A DNA stretch of 64,000 nt, taken from Nitrosotalea devaniterrae (lineage in GTDB: Archaea; Thermoproteota; Nitrososphaeria; Nitrososphaerales; Nitrosopumilaceae). Below the pieces are notes generated by a model. It saw only the letters and a list, made by a program, of their open reading frames with translations. It made no database searches and was not told the origin of the DNA. Position 1 is the stretch's first letter. Every line of letters begins with the position of its first letter. The DNA lies in assembly GCA_900065925.1 (NCBI GenBank), contig LN890280.1:1666451-1730450 (forward strand), written 5' to 3'. Position numbers and translations under genes: made by a program. Positions 2,230 to 27,250 of the stretch are shown one piece after another.

Positions 2230-3675
2230 TTATGGGACTACGTTTATTCTGGCAGTTGGTGGGTTCTGGTCCTGAACTACCATAATCTTTACTGTACTTG
2301 AATCAGTACCATATTGGTTGCTCACTGTGAGTTTGAACTCTACTAGTTTCTGTTGACCATAGTCAACAGATGGTGAGTAGAATGCTGGATGAGCAGTACC
2401 ACTCAAGATTAGAGTTACGGGGTCACCGCTGATTTGTTCCCACTTGTACTTGATACCTACACCAGTACTAGCACTTCCATCCAACACAACTCTGCTATTT
2501 GGTGAGACTGTTTGATCTGGACCTGCATTAGCAACTGGTGGTTGTCCTGCTACTGGGAGATTATTGATCTTGACAGTAACAGAGCAAGATGGAATGTCAA
2601 CCATGTTATCAGATACATCTAGTGTAAACTGGAGAGTACCACTTGGACCATTTGGAGTTGGTGCTACAAATGTTGGACTCATATCAGAACTTGAAGATAA
2701 TTTTACTGGTTGTCCAGATATTTGTCTCCAGTAGTATGATATTGTATCACCACTTGGATTTGCAACTGACACTGGTAATCTAACTAGAGAATTAGAATTA
2801 ACAGAAGCATCTTGACATGTTATAGTTGGATCTTGATGAGTACTTTTAACGGTGACTTTAGTCATAGCAGCTGCTTTTCCCCCATGACCATCATCGGCTG
2901 TAAATACGAATAACAAAACTGCAGTTCTACCAGGTGTTACAGCTGGAGCTACAAATGATGTAGCAGTATTATCAGTTGATGATAACTGGACACTTGAACC
3001 AGAATATTGACCCCATGCTAATGTTAAGGAATCATTATCTGGGTCTGTTGCAGTAGCTTTTAGAGAGACTTGAGTTCCCTCGTCAACAACTTGATCAGGA
3101 TTTACTGTAACAACCGGGGGATGATTAACGTGCAAAACTACAACATCAAAAGTTGTAGTATCCTTCAATCCATATCCATCATCTACGGTTAATGATAACT
3201 TCAATGATTTCACTTCATTTACAGGAACAGATGGAGCTATGAAAGATATGACTGGAGCAGCGGAACTTGGAGTAAATGTTACTGCATCACCAGAGACTTG
3301 AGTCCATTGATAAGATAATTTCTTACCAACATCTGGAGTTGTTGATTTTAGACCAGAAAGTGTAACCTTTGTGTTTTCATATACTACAATACTATTTGCC
3401 AATGAACCTTGTAAGAAGTATTGTGTTAGAGTGCCTGATCTTGCAACATCGGTTGTATAGAATTTAGCACAGTAAATATGATCGGTACCTTGGAATTGTT
3501 GAATACACTGTTGGAGGAATTGTTCTGCACTGCCACTGTTTGAGCTTGTTTGGGCATTTGCAGATATTGTTGGCAAGACAGCAGAGAAAATCATCGCAGC
3601 TAGTATTGCAACAAAAAATTTGTAATTCAACTTGTCAGTTCTAAATTTTAGATTATTAAAAAACCTTTCTCTCAA
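2230..3675 (-). CDS. Secreted protein with tandem PKD/Ig-like domains
   Basis: A 481-residue exported protein. A basic start and a hydrophobic helix ending at ISANAQ (about residues 20-42) form a Sec signal peptide. A short Cys-containing segment (QQCIQQF, HIYCAKF) comes next, then four or five beta-sandwich repeats of about 90 residues with the PKD/REJ pattern YxWxQxSG (YQWTQVSGD, YYWRQISGQ, YKWEQISGD) and DGYGLKD or DGHGGK turns. The last domain begins near PPVANAGPDQTV. I see no membrane anchor or VPEFG tail. The likely role is cell-surface or extracellular adhesion, but no catalytic motif is visible. It converges with guaA. Confidence 0.8.
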   Translation of the reverse strand: MRERFFNNLKFRTDKLNYKFFVAILAAMIFSAVLPTISANAQTSSNSGSAEQFLQQCIQQFQGTDHIYCAKFYTTDVARSGTLTQYFLQGSLANSIVVYENTKVTLSGLKSTTPDVGKKLSYQWTQVSGDAVTFTPSSAAPVISFIAPSVPVNEVKSLKLSLTVDDGYGLKDTTTFDVVVLHVNHPPVVTVNPDQVVDEGTQVSLKATATDPDNDSLTLAWGQYSGSSVQLSSTDNTATSFVAPAVTPGRTAVLLFVFTADDGHGGKAAAMTKVTVKSTHQDPTITCQDASVNSNSLVRLPVSVANPSGDTISYYWRQISGQPVKLSSSSDMSPTFVAPTPNGPSGTLQFTLDVSDNMVDIPSCSVTVKINNLPVAGQPPVANAGPDQTVSPNSRVVLDGSASTGVGIKYKWEQISGDPVTLILSGTAHPAFYSPSVDYGQQKLVEFKLTVSNQYGTDSSTVKIMVVQDQNPPTARINVVP

Positions 3676-3761
3676 TTTGTAGTATCAGCAAGATCAGTTT
3701 TTTGATCTAAAAACACTGTTTGATATGGTAATTTCATCGATTTTATGCACTAATTATCGGC

Positions 3762-4775
3762 TCATGGACTATGGGTCCTAACAAATGACAAAACTTCATC
3801 CATTGTAGGTGGAATTCCAAGTGGGTGACCGACATACAGGGAAGCTGCACCATTTGCAAACCTTAGTCTTTCAAAAGTATCAAGGTTTACAATATAACCA
3901 AGTAGATTTGCAGCATCCCAGACATCTCCAGCTCCTGTTACAAATTTGGGTTCTACTTGGAAAGATTTAGCAAATTCCACCTCTTGTCCATTTGACCAAT
4001 ATGATCCTGTAGCAGTATGAAGATCAATAGGTAGTGAGTATAGCTGTGCCAATTCAAGCACTAGTTTCTTTGTTTCTTTTTCCCCAGAAATTGTGTCTAA
4101 TCCAGATTGTGTCAGAAGAATATTACATTCATTCTCATTAATGCATAAAGAATCTAGATGATCTGCAAGTTTAGGCAGTATTTCCTTAAACTCTTCAGAT
4201 CTTGTTTGAATGTCTGCTGGATCTAGAAAATGAAAGGCTGATGTAGACTTTGTAAATGCAAACTGTGATAGTTCTGTTCCTTTTTTATTACTAGCCCAAT
4301 TTGTCACAATAACAGCATCAGCACTTGTTAGTACATTTAGCTCAGCTGTTCCAAGTTTTTCAGGCCCAAAGTTTTCATTATCACCCAAATCAGAGATCAT
4401 TATGTTTACAATGTTACCACTATTGTTGAATTCAAGTGATGTTGTTCTTCCAGGTTTTCCATCAATTATAGAAAGTGAAACTTTATCAAATCCAGAAAAA
4501 GTTTCTTGTAGTATTTGAGAGCCGATCTTGTCAGCAATTGTAATCAAGGATACCGGACAACCAAGTTTTGCAAGAGCATAAGCAACATTTGTTGCATTTC
4601 CACCCTTTAGATCTGTTTGTGGAATTCCACGAATACTTCCACCTAATTTGCTTTTTTCTAAAATTTGATTGTAAAGTTTATCTAAATTTTGAATCTTGAT
4701 AATACGATCTAGGAAAAAATCATTTAGAACAACAACTGGTTTAGTTAGTTTTAGATTTTGTAGCTTTTCTAACAT
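3762..4775 (-). CDS. PfkB-family (ribokinase-like) sugar/nucleoside kinase
   Basis: A 337-residue cytosolic kinase of the ribokinase fold. The N-terminal part carries the Gly-rich substrate loop GGNATNVAYALAKLG (about 58-72). The C-terminal ATP-site signature TGAGDVWDAANLLGYI (about 280-295) contains the catalytic Asp of the GAGD motif. Length and motif order fit ribokinase, ADP-dependent or nucleoside kinases of this superfamily, but the substrate cannot be read from the sequence. Its start lies 8 nt after the thermosome stop, so it is probably a downstream operon member of the chaperonin gene. Confidence 0.85.
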   Translation of the reverse strand: MLEKLQNLKLTKPVVVLNDFFLDRIIKIQNLDKLYNQILEKSKLGGSIRGIPQTDLKGGNATNVAYALAKLGCPVSLITIADKIGSQILQETFSGFDKVSLSIIDGKPGRTTSLEFNNSGNIVNIMISDLGDNENFGPEKLGTAELNVLTSADAVIVTNWASNKKGTELSQFAFTKSTSAFHFLDPADIQTRSEEFKEILPKLADHLDSLCINENECNILLTQSGLDTISGEKETKKLVLELAQLYSLPIDLHTATGSYWSNGQEVEFAKSFQVEPKFVTGAGDVWDAANLLGYIVNLDTFERLRFANGAASLYVGHPLGIPPTMDEVLSFVRTHSP

Positions 4776-22343: not shown

Positions 22344-22853
22344 ATGTCAGTTGAACATGAAGATCCTTTTGTAAAAATTGCTGCCTTGATAGGTGGAGAT
22401 GAGTATCTGAAAGTTGCTCGCTCCCTTCTTAACACAGAGGATGCTACAGATGAGGAAATAGCAAGCTCAACTGGACTTAGAATCAACATAGTTAGAAAAG
22501 TACTGTACGATCTTTTTGGTAAAGCGCTGATAACAGGAATAAGAGTAAAGGACGAAAAGAAAGGATGGTTTGTCTACAGATGGAGAGCAAGAAAGGATGA
22601 AGTAGACAACTTTATTGAAAACCAAAAAAAGAAGATTGTAGAAAGATTGCAACAGAGAGTAGATTATGAGAATTCTGCAGACTTTTATCATTGTGGAAAT
22701 GAAGACTGTCAAAAATTAACCTTTGAAAAAGCCCTTGATTTATCCTTCAAATGTCCTACTTGTGGAAAGTTGGTAAATCTTTCAAAAAATGAAAAGCTGA
22801 AAAAGGCTTTACAGGGAAAAATAGATCAGCTACGTGATGATCTCAAACATTAA
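22344..22853 (+). CDS. tfe: Transcription initiation factor E (TFE alpha)
   Basis: A 169-residue general transcription factor that stabilises the open promoter complex. The N-terminal winged helix (about 5-90) has DATDEEIASSTGLRINIVRK and RWRARKDEV. An amphipathic linker leads to the C-terminal zinc ribbon with CGNEDCQ and CPTCGK (about 115-145), and a basic helix follows. All four zinc Cys are present. Its last 4 nt overlap the 3' end of the convergent reductase gene. Confidence 0.95.
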   Translation: MSVEHEDPFVKIAALIGGDEYLKVARSLLNTEDATDEEIASSTGLRINIVRKVLYDLFGKALITGIRVKDEKKGWFVYRWRARKDEVDNFIENQKKKIVERLQQRVDYENSADFYHCGNEDCQKLTFEKALDLSFKCPTCGKLVNLSKNEKLKKALQGKIDQLRDDLKH

Positions 22854-23494
22854 GACATATAGTGTAAAACTATTTCATTTTGTATTTTCTCAATCTTTTT
22901 CAATTTAAATGAGTTAGATATTTTTCCAAAACCAACACCTTCAACCAGAGAAATTGCAGTACTTCCCCCCAAGACATATGGCGTAATAGTAACTACAATT
23001 TCATCTACTAGTTTTTCCTTGAAGAAATACCAGTTAGTTGTGCCTCCACCTTCAACAGCAATTTTTTTAATTCCTTTTTTTCCAAGGATTTTCAATAATT
23101 TCTTTATATCGATTTTTTTCTTTCCACATCTAATTACTTGGACTCCTTTTGTAGTAAATTTTTTAACGTTTTTAGAAGAGTTTTCAGATACAACTAACAT
23201 TGTAGGAATTTTTTTTGCAGTTTTGACCACATTTGATTTTATAGATAAACTACCCTTTGAATCAAGAATAATACGAATGGGATTTTTTCCTTTGACATAA
23301 CGAACAGTGAGTAATGGATCGTCAACATTTACAGTATTTTTTCCTACTAGTACAGCATCAACACTTTTTCTAAGGTTATGAACTCTTACCAGATCTTTCC
23401 TAGATGATAGATTAGATTTTCCTGTACGAGTGGCTATTTTTCCATCAATGCTAATGGCAGCACTAAGTATTACGTATGGTCTAGATTTTTCCAT
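22850..23494 (-). CDS. arfC: 2,5-diamino-6-ribosylamino-pyrimidinone 5'-phosphate reductase
   Basis: A 214-residue RibD-C/DHFR-like reductase that reduces the ribosyl side chain to ribityl in archaeal and fungal-type riboflavin synthesis. Motifs: RPYVILSAAISIDGKIATRTGKS (written in parts: RPYVILSAAIS, DGKIATRTG), AVLVGKNTVNVDDPLLTVR, IRIILDSKG, VEGGGTTNWYF and VVTITPYVLGG. There is no deaminase domain. Last gene of the riboflavin operon; its start overlaps the amidohydrolase gene by 14 nt. Confidence 0.93.
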   Translation of the reverse strand: MEKSRPYVILSAAISIDGKIATRTGKSNLSSRKDLVRVHNLRKSVDAVLVGKNTVNVDDPLLTVRYVKGKNPIRIILDSKGSLSIKSNVVKTAKKIPTMLVVSENSSKNVKKFTTKGVQVIRCGKKKIDIKKLLKILGKKGIKKIAVEGGGTTNWYFFKEKLVDEIVVTITPYVLGGSTAISLVEGVGFGKISNSFKLKKIEKIQNEIVLHYMS

Positions 23495-24671
23495 GTACTA
23501 GTTTTCCTTCGTACATTACTGCTTTTATTGTATTTTCTGAAGCTCGTTGTACTACTGAAGCATGTGGATTGTGCATGGGCTCTAGATCAATTGAGTGCTT
23601 TTCAATGAATATACAATCTGCGATTTTGTCATTTTGAACAATTCCTACTTTACCACCCAGAAGATTAGAGGCATTGGTGGTAGCCATTTTGAGTATGTCT
23701 TTTGGCAATAGTCTTTTTTTCTTAATACCCATAGAAACTTTCCAAAGATAGTCCATTTCCCTGAACATATCAGGAGAGTTTATCATCACATTATCAGTTC
23801 CAATTGCCACATTACAACCAGCGTCAAGCATGAGATCTACATCAGGGACACCTTCTGCAAGAGATCCATTTGCTCTTGGACAAACAACAATACTTGTTTT
23901 ATTTTTGGTTGCCATCACAAGATCTTTTTGTGAAGCATAAGTCATATGAACCAAGAAATTCGGTTTTGCAATCAGAGCTCGCTGAGTTTCTGTTTTTCCA
24001 GATATTTTTTTGGATATCTTGTTACTTTCTTCAGTTTCGGCCGAATGTATAGCACGAATATTTTTTGTCTTTGCAAAGTATTGTAATGCCAAATCACTAA
24101 ATTCATTGGGACCGCTGATACCAACTCCGTCACAATGCACCAGAAGATTTTGAAGATCTAATTTGTGGGATTGCGGAATAGATATGTTATTTTTGATAGA
24201 ACTAGAGTTTTGATAATATTCAATTCTTCCCAAAATAACTGGCCTTATTGAAATACCCAATGTAGCGTTTTTTAACAGATTAATTCCTTCAATGCCCCCT
24301 TCTCGGAAATCAATGAATGATGTTATTCCTTTTTTAATCATAGAAATACATGAATTTCTGATAAAGCTTGTTAGATGTGATTTATCAGAATTTTTGAGAA
24401 TCTTTTGTTTAAATCCACTAACTGGGTGTATCTTTTCCTCAACATTGGAATCTATTCCTATGTCTTTTGCAATAGAATCCCCAATGTGTGTATGTGAATT
24501 AATCAGTCCAGGCATCATCAATAACCCCTCGCCATCAAGCACTGTTTCACCTTTGAGAGGCAAAAGTTTTGTCCCTATTTGTCCAATATGCTTTCCAGAA
24601 ATCCTTACACTTGTATTCTGAACATAATCTAGCTCTGGTCCATGAAAAAGGCTGATATTTTTTATCAGCAT
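23481..24671 (-). CDS. Amidohydrolase (cytosine/guanine-deaminase-like) inside riboflavin operon
   Basis: A 396-residue metal-dependent hydrolase of the TRZ/ATZ/cytosine-deaminase branch. All metal and catalytic residues are visible: HTH at 60-62 (LINSHTHIGDS), H209 and E212 in IHSAETEES, H242 in FLVHMTYAS, and D293 in AIGTDNVMINSPDMFREMD. Such enzymes deaminate ring amino groups. It overlaps the GTP cyclohydrolase III gene by 7 nt and the reductase gene by 14 nt, so it is firmly inside the riboflavin operon. This suggests it removes the pyrimidine C2 amino group or the formyl group, but neither is shown. A stand-alone salvage deaminase is the alternative. Confidence 0.85.
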   Translation of the reverse strand: MLIKNISLFHGPELDYVQNTSVRISGKHIGQIGTKLLPLKGETVLDGEGLLMMPGLINSHTHIGDSIAKDIGIDSNVEEKIHPVSGFKQKILKNSDKSHLTSFIRNSCISMIKKGITSFIDFREGGIEGINLLKNATLGISIRPVILGRIEYYQNSSSIKNNISIPQSHKLDLQNLLVHCDGVGISGPNEFSDLALQYFAKTKNIRAIHSAETEESNKISKKISGKTETQRALIAKPNFLVHMTYASQKDLVMATKNKTSIVVCPRANGSLAEGVPDVDLMLDAGCNVAIGTDNVMINSPDMFREMDYLWKVSMGIKKKRLLPKDILKMATTNASNLLGGKVGIVQNDKIADCIFIEKHSIDLEPMHNPHASVVQRASENTIKAVMYEGKLVHGKI

Positions 24672-25417
24672 GTTGTCTCAAGTATTCGTGTATCTTTTTT
24701 TCCAGAGTCTCTAAGTTCACGAATCTTATCTAGTGACAGGGTGGCCAATTTTGCAGCATCTCTTCCTGTTTTTGCTGTTCCAATTCCACAGTTAAAGGAA
24801 ATATCATATTTTTGTTTTACAATTTCAAGAAACTTTGTTATTTCATCCTTGTTAAAATTAGAGCTTATTATCATAAAGTTATCTCCACCCATGAAAAATG
24901 CAAGTGAGTTTCTCTGAAGGAAAAATTCTGACATTTCAGAATATAATTTTATAATAAGAGAAGATACTTCATAAGGTGATTTTTTGGCAGAAACTGAAGT
25001 AGAACCATCCACATCCATATGAATAATCTGAACTAAATCTGTCTCTTTCTTCAACTGTAATCCAAAGACATTATGATCCTTGCTTAGATTTGTGTTAGAT
25101 CTTCTTGCCTTATCAGCATTTGAACTTGCTTCAAACGGAGTATTTCCTTGTCCGATAGACATGGATAAACTCAATTCAAAAGATTTTACTAGTTGTTTCT
25201 GAATTTCTACATGATCGTCAGCGGAAAGACCATTACTTATTACAAAAATTTCATCAAATCGATTAGGAAATGCAAGACAATTTTTTTGTGAGAATAAATT
25301 TTGTATTTCTCGGTATAACGATGCTTGAAGCATCTGAAGCTTATGTTCTCGATCACTGCCCAAGGTCAGAGTCCAAGGTCCATAGCCAGTAATCTTGATT
25401 ATAGTTAATTGAATCAT
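24665..25417 (-). CDS. gch3: GTP cyclohydrolase III (archaeal)
   Basis: A 250-residue enzyme that opens GTP to 2-amino-5-formylamino-6-ribosylamino-pyrimidinone phosphate, the first step of archaeal riboflavin (and possibly F420) synthesis. The family N-terminus QLTIIKITGYGPWTLTLG is present, as are two nucleotide-cyclase-like halves (FPNRFDEIFVISNGLS and FFMGGDNFMIISSNFN) and DVDGSTSVS. Its ATG overlaps ribH by 4 nt. Confidence 0.94.
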   Translation of the reverse strand: MIQLTIIKITGYGPWTLTLGSDREHKLQMLQASLYREIQNLFSQKNCLAFPNRFDEIFVISNGLSADDHVEIQKQLVKSFELSLSMSIGQGNTPFEASSNADKARRSNTNLSKDHNVFGLQLKKETDLVQIIHMDVDGSTSVSAKKSPYEVSSLIIKLYSEMSEFFLQRNSLAFFMGGDNFMIISSNFNKDEITKFLEIVKQKYDISFNCGIGTAKTGRDAAKLATLSLDKIRELRDSGKKDTRILETTC

Positions 25418-25830
25418 TTTCTAATTTTTTCCAGTTCTTCAGATAATTTCTTTACAGCCTCAACAGCTCTCTCAGCTACAGGACGTATTCTTTGATGTGC
25501 TTGTCTGTCACTCATTCCAGGTCCTGTTATTCCCAGTGTAACTGGTTTTTGATGCTTTATTGAAAGATCTGCTATTGCTTTTGCAGTAACATGTGAAATT
25601 AGTTCATCGTGTTTTGTTTGCCCTTGGATTACGGCTCCAAGAGTTACCACAGCATCAATGTCCTTTCTTTGTAACAGAGTGTCAATTATGAGAGGCATAT
25701 CAAATACGCCTGGTACCTTAGCGGTATACTTTACATTCAGTTTCAATACGCTTGCTTTTTCTATTGCAAGATCAAGCATTTTAGAGGTTATTTCACTATT
25801 AAACTCGGCAACAACAATTGCTATATTCAA
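25414..25830 (-). CDS. ribH: 6,7-dimethyl-8-ribityllumazine synthase
   Basis: 138 residues. It condenses the ribityl-pyrimidine with dihydroxybutanone phosphate. Family marks: IAIVVAEFNSEITSKML at the N-terminus, VPGVFDMPLI, VTLGAVIQGQTKHDELI with the catalytic His, and LGITGPGMSDRQAHQR near the end. It lies 2 nt after ribB and overlaps gch3 by 4 nt. Confidence 0.95.
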   Translation of the reverse strand: MNIAIVVAEFNSEITSKMLDLAIEKASVLKLNVKYTAKVPGVFDMPLIIDTLLQRKDIDAVVTLGAVIQGQTKHDELISHVTAKAIADLSIKHQKPVTLGITGPGMSDRQAHQRIRPVAERAVEAVKKLSEELEKIRK

Positions 25831-25832
25831 AA

Positions 25833-26513
25833 TTAATGCTCCTTGGAAATTTTAACAAGCTCAGCACCATCAAAATAGGGTATTGCATTATCACTAGCAT
25901 ATTTTTTTGCCTTGTCAGTAGATAGTGCAGCAAATGTTTGAGAATCTAACATTTCACATATTGCAGTAACTGGCGAAAGCCCTGCAAGCTTCATCAGATA
26001 GATAGACATTTCAGTGTGACCAAGTCTATTTGACAATAATCCTTCTGAGGCAATAAGTAATGGAACATGACCAGGCGTTTTAAAATTAGAATTGAAAAGA
26101 ATTTTTTTGTCACTATTCTCATTTTTATATAATTTAGCCATTTCAGAAATCGTAAATGCTCTTTCTTTATCTGTTATTCCAGTGAATGTATTTTTATGAT
26201 TAATTGAGATTGAAAATGATGGTCGATCTCCATAAGGTGCAGTACCAATTATCATCTTTTTTAAATCTACATCAAAATTTTGAGAGTTAGAAAGAATTTC
26301 ATGCATATAGTCTAATCCCAAACTTGATGCAAGTGCATGATTGATTGACATGCAAATCAGCCCTCCAGCATCCATACGCATACGTGCTATATGTTTTGGA
26401 GTTACAAATTCTGCTGCAATCACCATATCTACCTCATTTTCACGTTTACCCTCATCATGAAGTAGAATAAAGTCACCTCGTCTAAGAGATGAGAGTGCTT
26501 CATCTAAGGACAT
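25833..26513 (-). CDS. ribB: 3,4-dihydroxy-2-butanone 4-phosphate synthase
   Basis: A 226-residue Mg-dependent enzyme that makes the four-carbon riboflavin precursor from ribulose 5-phosphate. Seen: ILLHDEGKRENEVDMVIAAE with acidic metal ligands, RMRMDAGGLICMSI, FTGITDKERAFTI, and FKTPGHVPLL followed by RLGHTEMSIYLMKLAGL. Single-domain form without a GTP cyclohydrolase II fusion, consistent with the use of GTP cyclohydrolase III here. Confidence 0.95.
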   Translation of the reverse strand: MSLDEALSSLRRGDFILLHDEGKRENEVDMVIAAEFVTPKHIARMRMDAGGLICMSINHALASSLGLDYMHEILSNSQNFDVDLKKMIIGTAPYGDRPSFSISINHKNTFTGITDKERAFTISEMAKLYKNENSDKKILFNSNFKTPGHVPLLIASEGLLSNRLGHTEMSIYLMKLAGLSPVTAICEMLDSQTFAALSTDKAKKYASDNAIPYFDGAELVKISKEH

Positions 26514-26586: not shown

Positions 26587-27177
26587 CTAATCTTCAGATA
26601 AAATATATTTTCCAAGAATGTCAGTTTCAATATTAACTTTGTCGCTAACTTTTTTGTAACTCAAATTAGTTATTTTCATAGTATGTGGTATTATTGAAAT
26701 TGAAAATTGATCTTTTAGCACATCAACAACTGTCAGACTGATACCATCAACTGTTACAGAACCTTTCTTAATGATGTATTTTGATAATTCCGTTGGAGGT
26801 TTTACCCAGATTTGTATCTGATTGGATTGTTTTTCGATCTTAGAAATAATGCCTATGCCATCAACGTGTCCTAGTACAAAGTGACCTTCAAGTCGCTCAC
26901 CAACTTTGAGGCTTCGTTCAATATTGACTTTATCACCAAGTTTCAGAAATCCTAAATTAGTTTTCTTTATTGTTTCACCAACCATCTCAAATTCTGTTAT
27001 TTCTTTTGAAATATTTACTGCAGTAAGACATACACCATTTATTGCTACACTATCTCCTACTTTGAGACCTTTTACAATTTTACCAAGATTGATTTTCATT
27101 TTTGCAGCACTACGGTTATTCGTTTTTTTGTTAAATGCTGTAATCTTACCAAGACCTTCGATTATACCAGTAAACAT
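26587..27177 (-). CDS. ribE: Riboflavin synthase, bacterial-type (alpha chain)
   Basis: 196 residues. It dismutates two lumazines into riboflavin. Two tandem lumazine-binding barrels are visible: MFTGIIEGLGKI to about residue 90 (with GDSVAINGVCLTAV and ERSLKVGERLEGHFVLGHVDG, written in parts) and the second with GSVTVDGISLTVVDV and IIPHTMKITNL. The start at 27177 gives the canonical MFTGII N-terminus. Many Euryarchaeota instead use an unrelated lumazine-synthase-like riboflavin synthase, so this is the bacterial/eukaryotic type in an archaeal operon. First gene of the cluster. Confidence 0.94.
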   Translation of the reverse strand: MFTGIIEGLGKITAFNKKTNNRSAAKMKINLGKIVKGLKVGDSVAINGVCLTAVNISKEITEFEMVGETIKKTNLGFLKLGDKVNIERSLKVGERLEGHFVLGHVDGIGIISKIEKQSNQIQIWVKPPTELSKYIIKKGSVTVDGISLTVVDVLKDQFSISIIPHTMKITNLSYKKVSDKVNIETDILGKYILSED

Positions 27178-27250
27178 GATTAACAATTTCTATTTGTACT
27201 AAGATGATTTATGTTTATCAAATAATAGATAACATTATACAATTTAGTCG

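Follow-up and report, generated by a model that had tools for sequence, protein, structure and literature searches.

The riboflavin operon and its amidohydrolase gene

The DNA analysed here, referred to as the window, is a stretch of 64,000 nucleotides from Nitrosotalea devaniterrae, whose archaeal genome consists of a single contig of 1.8 Mb. On the minus strand of the window lies an operon for riboflavin synthesis, with the gene order ribE-ribB-ribH-gch3-amh-arfC. It opens with ribE (26587..27186), which encodes a bacterial-type riboflavin synthase (TIGR00187, 228 bits against a cut-off of 156.6), followed by ribB (25833..26513; TIGR00506, 209.3 against 177.45) and ribH (25414..25830), the gene for lumazine synthase (TIGR00114, 131.8 against 84.6). 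The next gene, gch3 or arfA (24665..25417), encodes GTP cyclohydrolase III, which is recognised by PF05165 (180.3 bits against 21.3) and stays under its NCBIfam cut-off (176.8 against 306). The last one, arfC (22850..23494), encodes 2,5-diamino-6-ribosylamino-pyrimidinone 5'-phosphate reductase (TIGR01508, 199.7 bits against 186.45), a protein made of the RibD C-terminal domain only. A second copy of GTP cyclohydrolase III was also seen outside the operon in two genomes of the window's family (G068:C9:5396-6088 and G239:C31:239-934).

Between gch3 and arfC lies amh (23481..24671, minus strand), which has an ATG start and encodes an amidohydrolase of 396 amino acids from the NF005552/PRK07213 family. 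It is proposed here as the C2 deaminase of 2,5-diamino-6-(ribitylamino)-4(3H)-pyrimidinone 5'-phosphate. Among named organisms, the gene is closest to Candidatus Nitrosotalea, at 91% identity. An earlier note on this DNA had described an amidohydrolase gene overlapping both of its neighbours, and the coordinates of the open reading frames agree, with 7 nt shared with gch3 (24665-24671) and 14 nt with arfC (23481-23494).

The same neighbourhood is found in related archaea. Public genomes supplied 80 named Nitrososphaerota-type loci, and arfC comes after the gene in every one of them and gch3 before it in 78; at the two loci without gch3, the gene starts less than 100 bp from the end of the available stretch. 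The window's order is represented by 50 genomes (families f1-f3) in a fixed 300-genome sample of the phylum, and gch3 is present within 300 bp of the gene in 50/50 of them, while arfC is within 300 bp in 49/50 and within 5 kb in 50/50. Because it recurs in every one of these genomes, the arrangement is not due to chance. In the whole 300-genome sample, gch3 is located within 300 bp on the same strand in 64/110 genomes and arfC in 57/112. Beyond the order, the amidohydrolase gene adjoins gch3 in 14 genomes and arfC in 8 (within 300 bp), it adjoins ribH at loci L189 and L196-L198, and it shares a cluster with rib genes in others. The linkage is missing in many lineages: gch3 or arfC is found within 5 kb and on the same strand in just 77 of the 115 family genomes. 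Conservation beside gch3 and arfC, which the earlier note had proposed as a check, is thus found across the order and beyond it.

The scan of genome contigs gave only Nitrososphaerota-type loci, and Euryarchaeota are represented by the presence of the family among four named archaeal controls. Copies of the family were also noticed on three haloarchaeal megaplasmids (L136, L137 and L138), each away from riboflavin genes; the copy in L136 adjoins genes for a DUF2309 protein and a proton-conducting transporter subunit.

Family, fold and signature residues

The complete metal site of the cytosine/guanine-deaminase type that had been read from the sequence in the earlier note is confirmed. All six residues (H60, H62, H209, E212, H242 and D293) are present in the window protein, and they are invariant in 65/65 aligned family members, an alignment that leaves out L040, whose open reading frame runs off its contig. 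With this HxH, H, (E)H, D site, a TIM barrel and a flanking beta sandwich, the protein belongs to the cytosine/guanine-deaminase branch of the amidohydrolase superfamily. It scores 322.5 bits, over nearly its full length, with the NCBIfam equivalog NF005552/PRK07213 (curated cut-off 294), and many of its relatives fall far below that cut-off (for instance, L036 with 213.1 and L149 with 129.5). This model bears the name ‘chlorohydrolase’, and nothing found here supports such a function. A Pfam search of the window protein returned only PF01979 (128.5 bits) and PF07969, with neither the creatininase domain PF02633 nor PF00383. The models of SAH, MTA and 5'-deoxyadenosine deaminases were not reached (NF004701 117.6/609, NF005557 82.1/522 and NF012037 62.1/779 bits).

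The AlphaFold model of the amidohydrolase has a pLDDT of 94.8, and its fold neighbours include adenosine-type deaminases, guanine deaminases, triazine hydrolases and an isocytosine-specific deaminase, all with Z of 40-43. Since Z is about equal across several enzyme types, the fold by itself does not name the substrate. The isocytosine-specific deaminase Vcz (7ww2, 8is4) has the same fold (8is4: Z 41.6, rmsd 2.5, 383 aligned residues) and the same ring chemistry as proposed here, namely C2 deamination of a 2-amino-4-pyrimidinone. It differs in its 18% identity and in having no known riboflavin role, and its Z is tied with that of many other deaminases.

Among proteins of solved structure, TM0936 (1p1m, E 6.2e-38) gives the best profile match. 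SAH/MTA deaminases of this type share the branch and the metal site with the window protein, but the printed alignment shows NPASN in TM0936 opposite CPRSN or CPRAN of the family, and TDG opposite its TDN. The TM0936-type paralogues encoded in the sampled genomes lack D65, K88 and E124. Each of these three residues occurs in 65/65 family members and in 0/8 paralogues of the SAH/MTA-deaminase type, and N294, likewise kept in 65/65 members, is replaced by Gly in 8/8 paralogues. R266 and R376 are retained in 62/65 members. At 20 further loci, D65, K88, E124 and N294 were found in 19; the exception, L200, has none of these residues and had been included because it was suspected to lie outside the family. 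One of the paralogues, L145, matches the models of ‘N-ethylammeline chlorohydrolase’ and 5'-deoxyadenosine deaminase. In a tree of 52 rows, a branch supported at 100/100 separates the 30 riboflavin-linked rows from the 8 outgroup rows, a split counted without the 14 ungrouped rows.

Co-occurrence with pathway enzymes

Co-occurrence was counted in the same fixed 300-genome sample. With NF005552 alone (E <= 1e-43), the family was detected in 78 genomes, which left 38 genomes with GTP cyclohydrolase III but without the amidohydrolase. A second count was performed with profile A3, built from 28 diverse members, and it filled all of these gaps but one, a genome whose GTP cyclohydrolase III match is itself sub-threshold; the 38 gaps therefore reflect a limit of sensitivity. 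Profile A3 was built partly from riboflavin-linked members found on the way, which favours finding such members, and for this reason both counts are given here. The membership line lies at 172.8 bits, at a match from G074 that has D65, K88, E124 and N294 and lacks R266 and R376, while the next match below it (G118, 171.9 bits) is without the signature. Signature residues were checked on fetched sequences, a subset of the 115 family genomes.

According to the A3 count, the amidohydrolase family is present in 115/300 genomes. It accompanies GTP cyclohydrolase III over the cut-off in 110/110 genomes, as opposed to 5/190 of the others, and in 110/111 if the single sub-threshold match is counted. 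The five genomes with the amidohydrolase and without GTP cyclohydrolase III are G007, G019, G103, G109 and G234, two of which are incomplete (G007 76% and G234 62% complete). An ArfC-type reductase is encoded in 112/115 amidohydrolase genomes, with G007, G086 and G296 as exceptions, and an ArfC-like protein occurs in 16 genomes that have neither the amidohydrolase nor GTP cyclohydrolase III. In a separate draw of 61 genomes of the order, deeper families included, the amidohydrolase was over the cut-off in 28; two more matches, in G316 and in a partial frame of G327, were below it, and 31/61 genomes had no convincing copy. The family is matched at E <= 1e-40 in each of Methanocaldococcus jannaschii, S. 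acidocaldarius, H. volcanii and M. acetivorans, and in 0/10 bacterial controls at the same threshold. M. acetivorans has the amidohydrolase without GTP cyclohydrolase III, creatininase or RibA.

No full RibD was detected over the cut-off in any of the 300 genomes. In the window's genome, the RibD model TIGR00326 matches arfC only, over positions 128-337, so the search for a separate RibD-type deaminase that the earlier note had called for returned none. RibA was absent from 18/18 genomes tested, the window's genome among them. The window's genome encodes three PF01979 proteins, namely this amidohydrolase, an adenine-deaminase-like protein and a dihydropyrimidinase-like protein. It also encodes one PF00383 protein, whose best matches are dCMP-deaminase-like models (ComEB), below their cut-off. 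This protein was considered as the riboflavin deaminase and set aside, because many genomes with the amidohydrolase have no PF00383 match. Such a match is absent in 15/28 genomes of the order with the amidohydrolase over the cut-off, and M. jannaschii and S. acidocaldarius, two carriers of the amidohydrolase, lack it as well; PF00383 deaminases are therefore not the general answer. In addition, G019, G109 and G234 (loci L023, L006 and L033) were seen to carry the amidohydrolase and arfC with neither GTP cyclohydrolase III nor RibA; the latter had been tried as their first enzyme and gave no match.

ArfB, the formamide hydrolase of the pathway, belongs to the creatininase superfamily, as stated in PMC9478397. 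The earlier note had asked whether a separate ArfB is encoded elsewhere. A creatininase-family gene, the only one of the window's genome, does exist at 1620498-1621154 (L004), but at 57.6 bits its product is far below the ArfB model cut-off of 180 and closer to MftE-like creatininases. This protein may be an unrecognised ArfB of these archaea. In the same region (L004 625-2190), the creatininase gene is seen to stand directly after a gene for a PurU-like formyltetrahydrofolate deformylase. The creatininase family is present in 108/111 genomes with GTP cyclohydrolase III, which is weak evidence, as creatininases are common in the phylum (222/300 genomes).

Stronger evidence comes from two genomes with a creatininase gene next to other genes of the pathway. 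In G182 (L157), genes for a creatininase (1558-2307), arfC (2313-2984) and the amidohydrolase (2971-4206) form one tight run on the same strand, and in G076 a creatininase gene is located beside gch3 (C69 122-844 and 1116-1853). On this evidence, both functions coexist. The run in G182 (L157 198-2307) continues after the creatininase with a CofG-like radical SAM frame, named by eye from its translation; such a neighbour is expected if F420 synthesis draws on the same product as the creatininase, arfC and amidohydrolase genes yield. The amidohydrolase gene is still beside arfC in G019 and G109, even though GTP cyclohydrolase III is missing.

The proposed reaction and competing readings

Considered together, co-occurrence, linkage, the absence of RibD and the signature favour removal of the C2 amino group, the main inference of the earlier note. 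Judged from the sequence and its comparisons, the window protein is very probably a metal-dependent aminohydrolase of the cytosine/guanine-deaminase branch that serves as the C2 deaminase of archaeal riboflavin synthesis. Its gene tends to stay with that of the reductase, whose reaction comes immediately before deamination in archaea according to PMC13028884. After reduction by ArfC, the C2 amino group of 2,5-diamino-6-(ribitylamino)-4(3H)-pyrimidinone 5'-phosphate, which contains an isocytosine ring, would be hydrolysed to give 5-amino-6-(ribitylamino)uracil 5'-phosphate and ammonia. A metal-activated water held by H60, H62, H209 and D293 would attack C2, with E212 and H242 serving as a proton shuttle. 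Water attack combined with a proton shuttle is the mechanism of guanine and isocytosine deaminases. Natural candidates for gripping the ribityl phosphate are K88, which is invariant, and R266 and R376, which are nearly so; they may hold it in place. The product would also supply the synthesis of F420.

A broader proposal, which is probable though less so than the assignment of the window protein, extends this role across Archaea. One family, defined by D65, K88, E124 and N294 in addition to the metal site, would be the obligate riboflavin and F420 deaminase, extending well beyond the present model of the family into lineages with weak NF005552 matches. It would represent a non-homologous replacement for RibD/Rib2, whose conserved basic residues would have adapted to binding the phosphorylated ribityl chain. 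Several observations run against the deaminase reading, namely the five family genomes without GTP cyclohydrolase III, M. acetivorans with the amidohydrolase but without GTP cyclohydrolase III, creatininase or RibA, the 16 with an ArfC-like protein and neither of the other two, the 31 of 61 order genomes without a convincing copy, and the patchy linkage.

An enzyme so often placed directly beside gch3 (64/110 genomes) could instead be the formamide hydrolase acting on the product of GTP cyclohydrolase III, with the deaminase encoded elsewhere, and a canonical ArfB is indeed missing from the window's genome, whose sole creatininase-family protein reaches 57.6 of the required 180 bits. This ArfB role is nevertheless improbable. 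A creatininase-family gene is present here and in 108 of the 111 genomes with GTP cyclohydrolase III, the run in G182 and the pair in G076 indicate that both functions coexist, and the amidohydrolase stays with arfC in G019 and G109, where GTP cyclohydrolase III is absent. The role of formyl hydrolase was rejected on the coexistence of creatininase-family genes with the amidohydrolase, once within the same gene run; the earlier note had already ranked removal of the formyl group as the less likely option, and the separate creatininase-family gene lowers it further.

Homology by itself would suggest a name of the SAH/MTA-deaminase or chlorohydrolase kind, as TM0936 is the closest solved relative by profile and adenosine-type deaminases are among the fold neighbours. 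The protein would then be a housekeeping or salvage deaminase, acting on SAH, MTA, 5'-deoxyadenosine, guanine or cytosine and merely located in the operon. Such a role has the same low probability as that of the formamide hydrolase. Salvage deaminases were rejected on the strict co-occurrence with GTP cyclohydrolase III (110/110), the fully supported split in the tree and the signature residues, which set the family apart from paralogues of the SAH/MTA type, L145 among them; the linkage, moreover, is repeated in distant lineages. Housecleaning enzymes for riboflavin intermediates are known, and the amidohydrolase might likewise repair or clear reactive diaminopyrimidine intermediates by acting on another amide or amine, while a different protein performs the deamination. 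This is the least probable of the alternatives. Deamination would then lack a separate candidate in genomes such as the six of family f2 without PF00383 proteins, and full RibD is absent in 3/3 of those tested.

The preferred assignment as C2 deaminase has a precedent. According to a 2021 review (PMC8305020), three gaps remained in the riboflavin reconstruction by Rodionova et al. 2017 (NAR), two of which had been given candidates. In its Table 6, HVO_2483, which shares 34% identity with MJ0699, appears as a prediction flanked by arfC and a missing phosphatase, and this order implies that HVO_2483 and MJ0699 were predicted for the deaminase step. MJ0699 is likely the M. jannaschii member of the amidohydrolase family. 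The earlier note lacked this prediction. No experimental assay of a candidate deaminase was found in a literature search whose scope excluded most subscription papers and in which MJ0699 and HVO_2483 were named only in PMC8305020.

The window protein resembles the HVO_2483/MJ0699 group in its predicted riboflavin role; M. jannaschii and H. volcanii each encode a match to its family, presumably MJ0699 and HVO_2483 themselves. It differs from the description of that group in being Nitrosotalea-like and locked into an operon with gch3 and arfC. The genomic association expected of such a group is found here, both in the 110 genomes with GTP cyclohydrolase III and in the 50 order genomes with gch3 alongside. 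As an idea, such a deaminase is not new for archaea, but its place in the operon of ammonia-oxidising archaea, together with near-perfect co-occurrence and the signature, makes it a strong and simple target for experiment. Strict co-occurrence, operon position and signature lead to one clean assay and to the exact residues to mutate. Bacterial RibD and fungal Rib2 catalyse the same class of reaction, C2 deamination in riboflavin synthesis, and belong to the cytidine-deaminase superfamily, whose fold is unrelated to that of amidohydrolases. If the assignment is correct, a family named ‘chlorohydrolase’ would gain a real name, and archaea would possess a second, independent invention of the riboflavin deaminase beside the bacterial and fungal one.

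A further observation concerns riboflavin synthase, a different enzyme of the pathway. The bacterial-type gene, found in the window at the start of the operon, is also first in the operon of L204, and in L206 a second lumazine-synthase-like frame (2245-2715), which may be of the archaeal RibC type, adjoins ribH. This suggests that riboflavin synthase has been swapped within the order.
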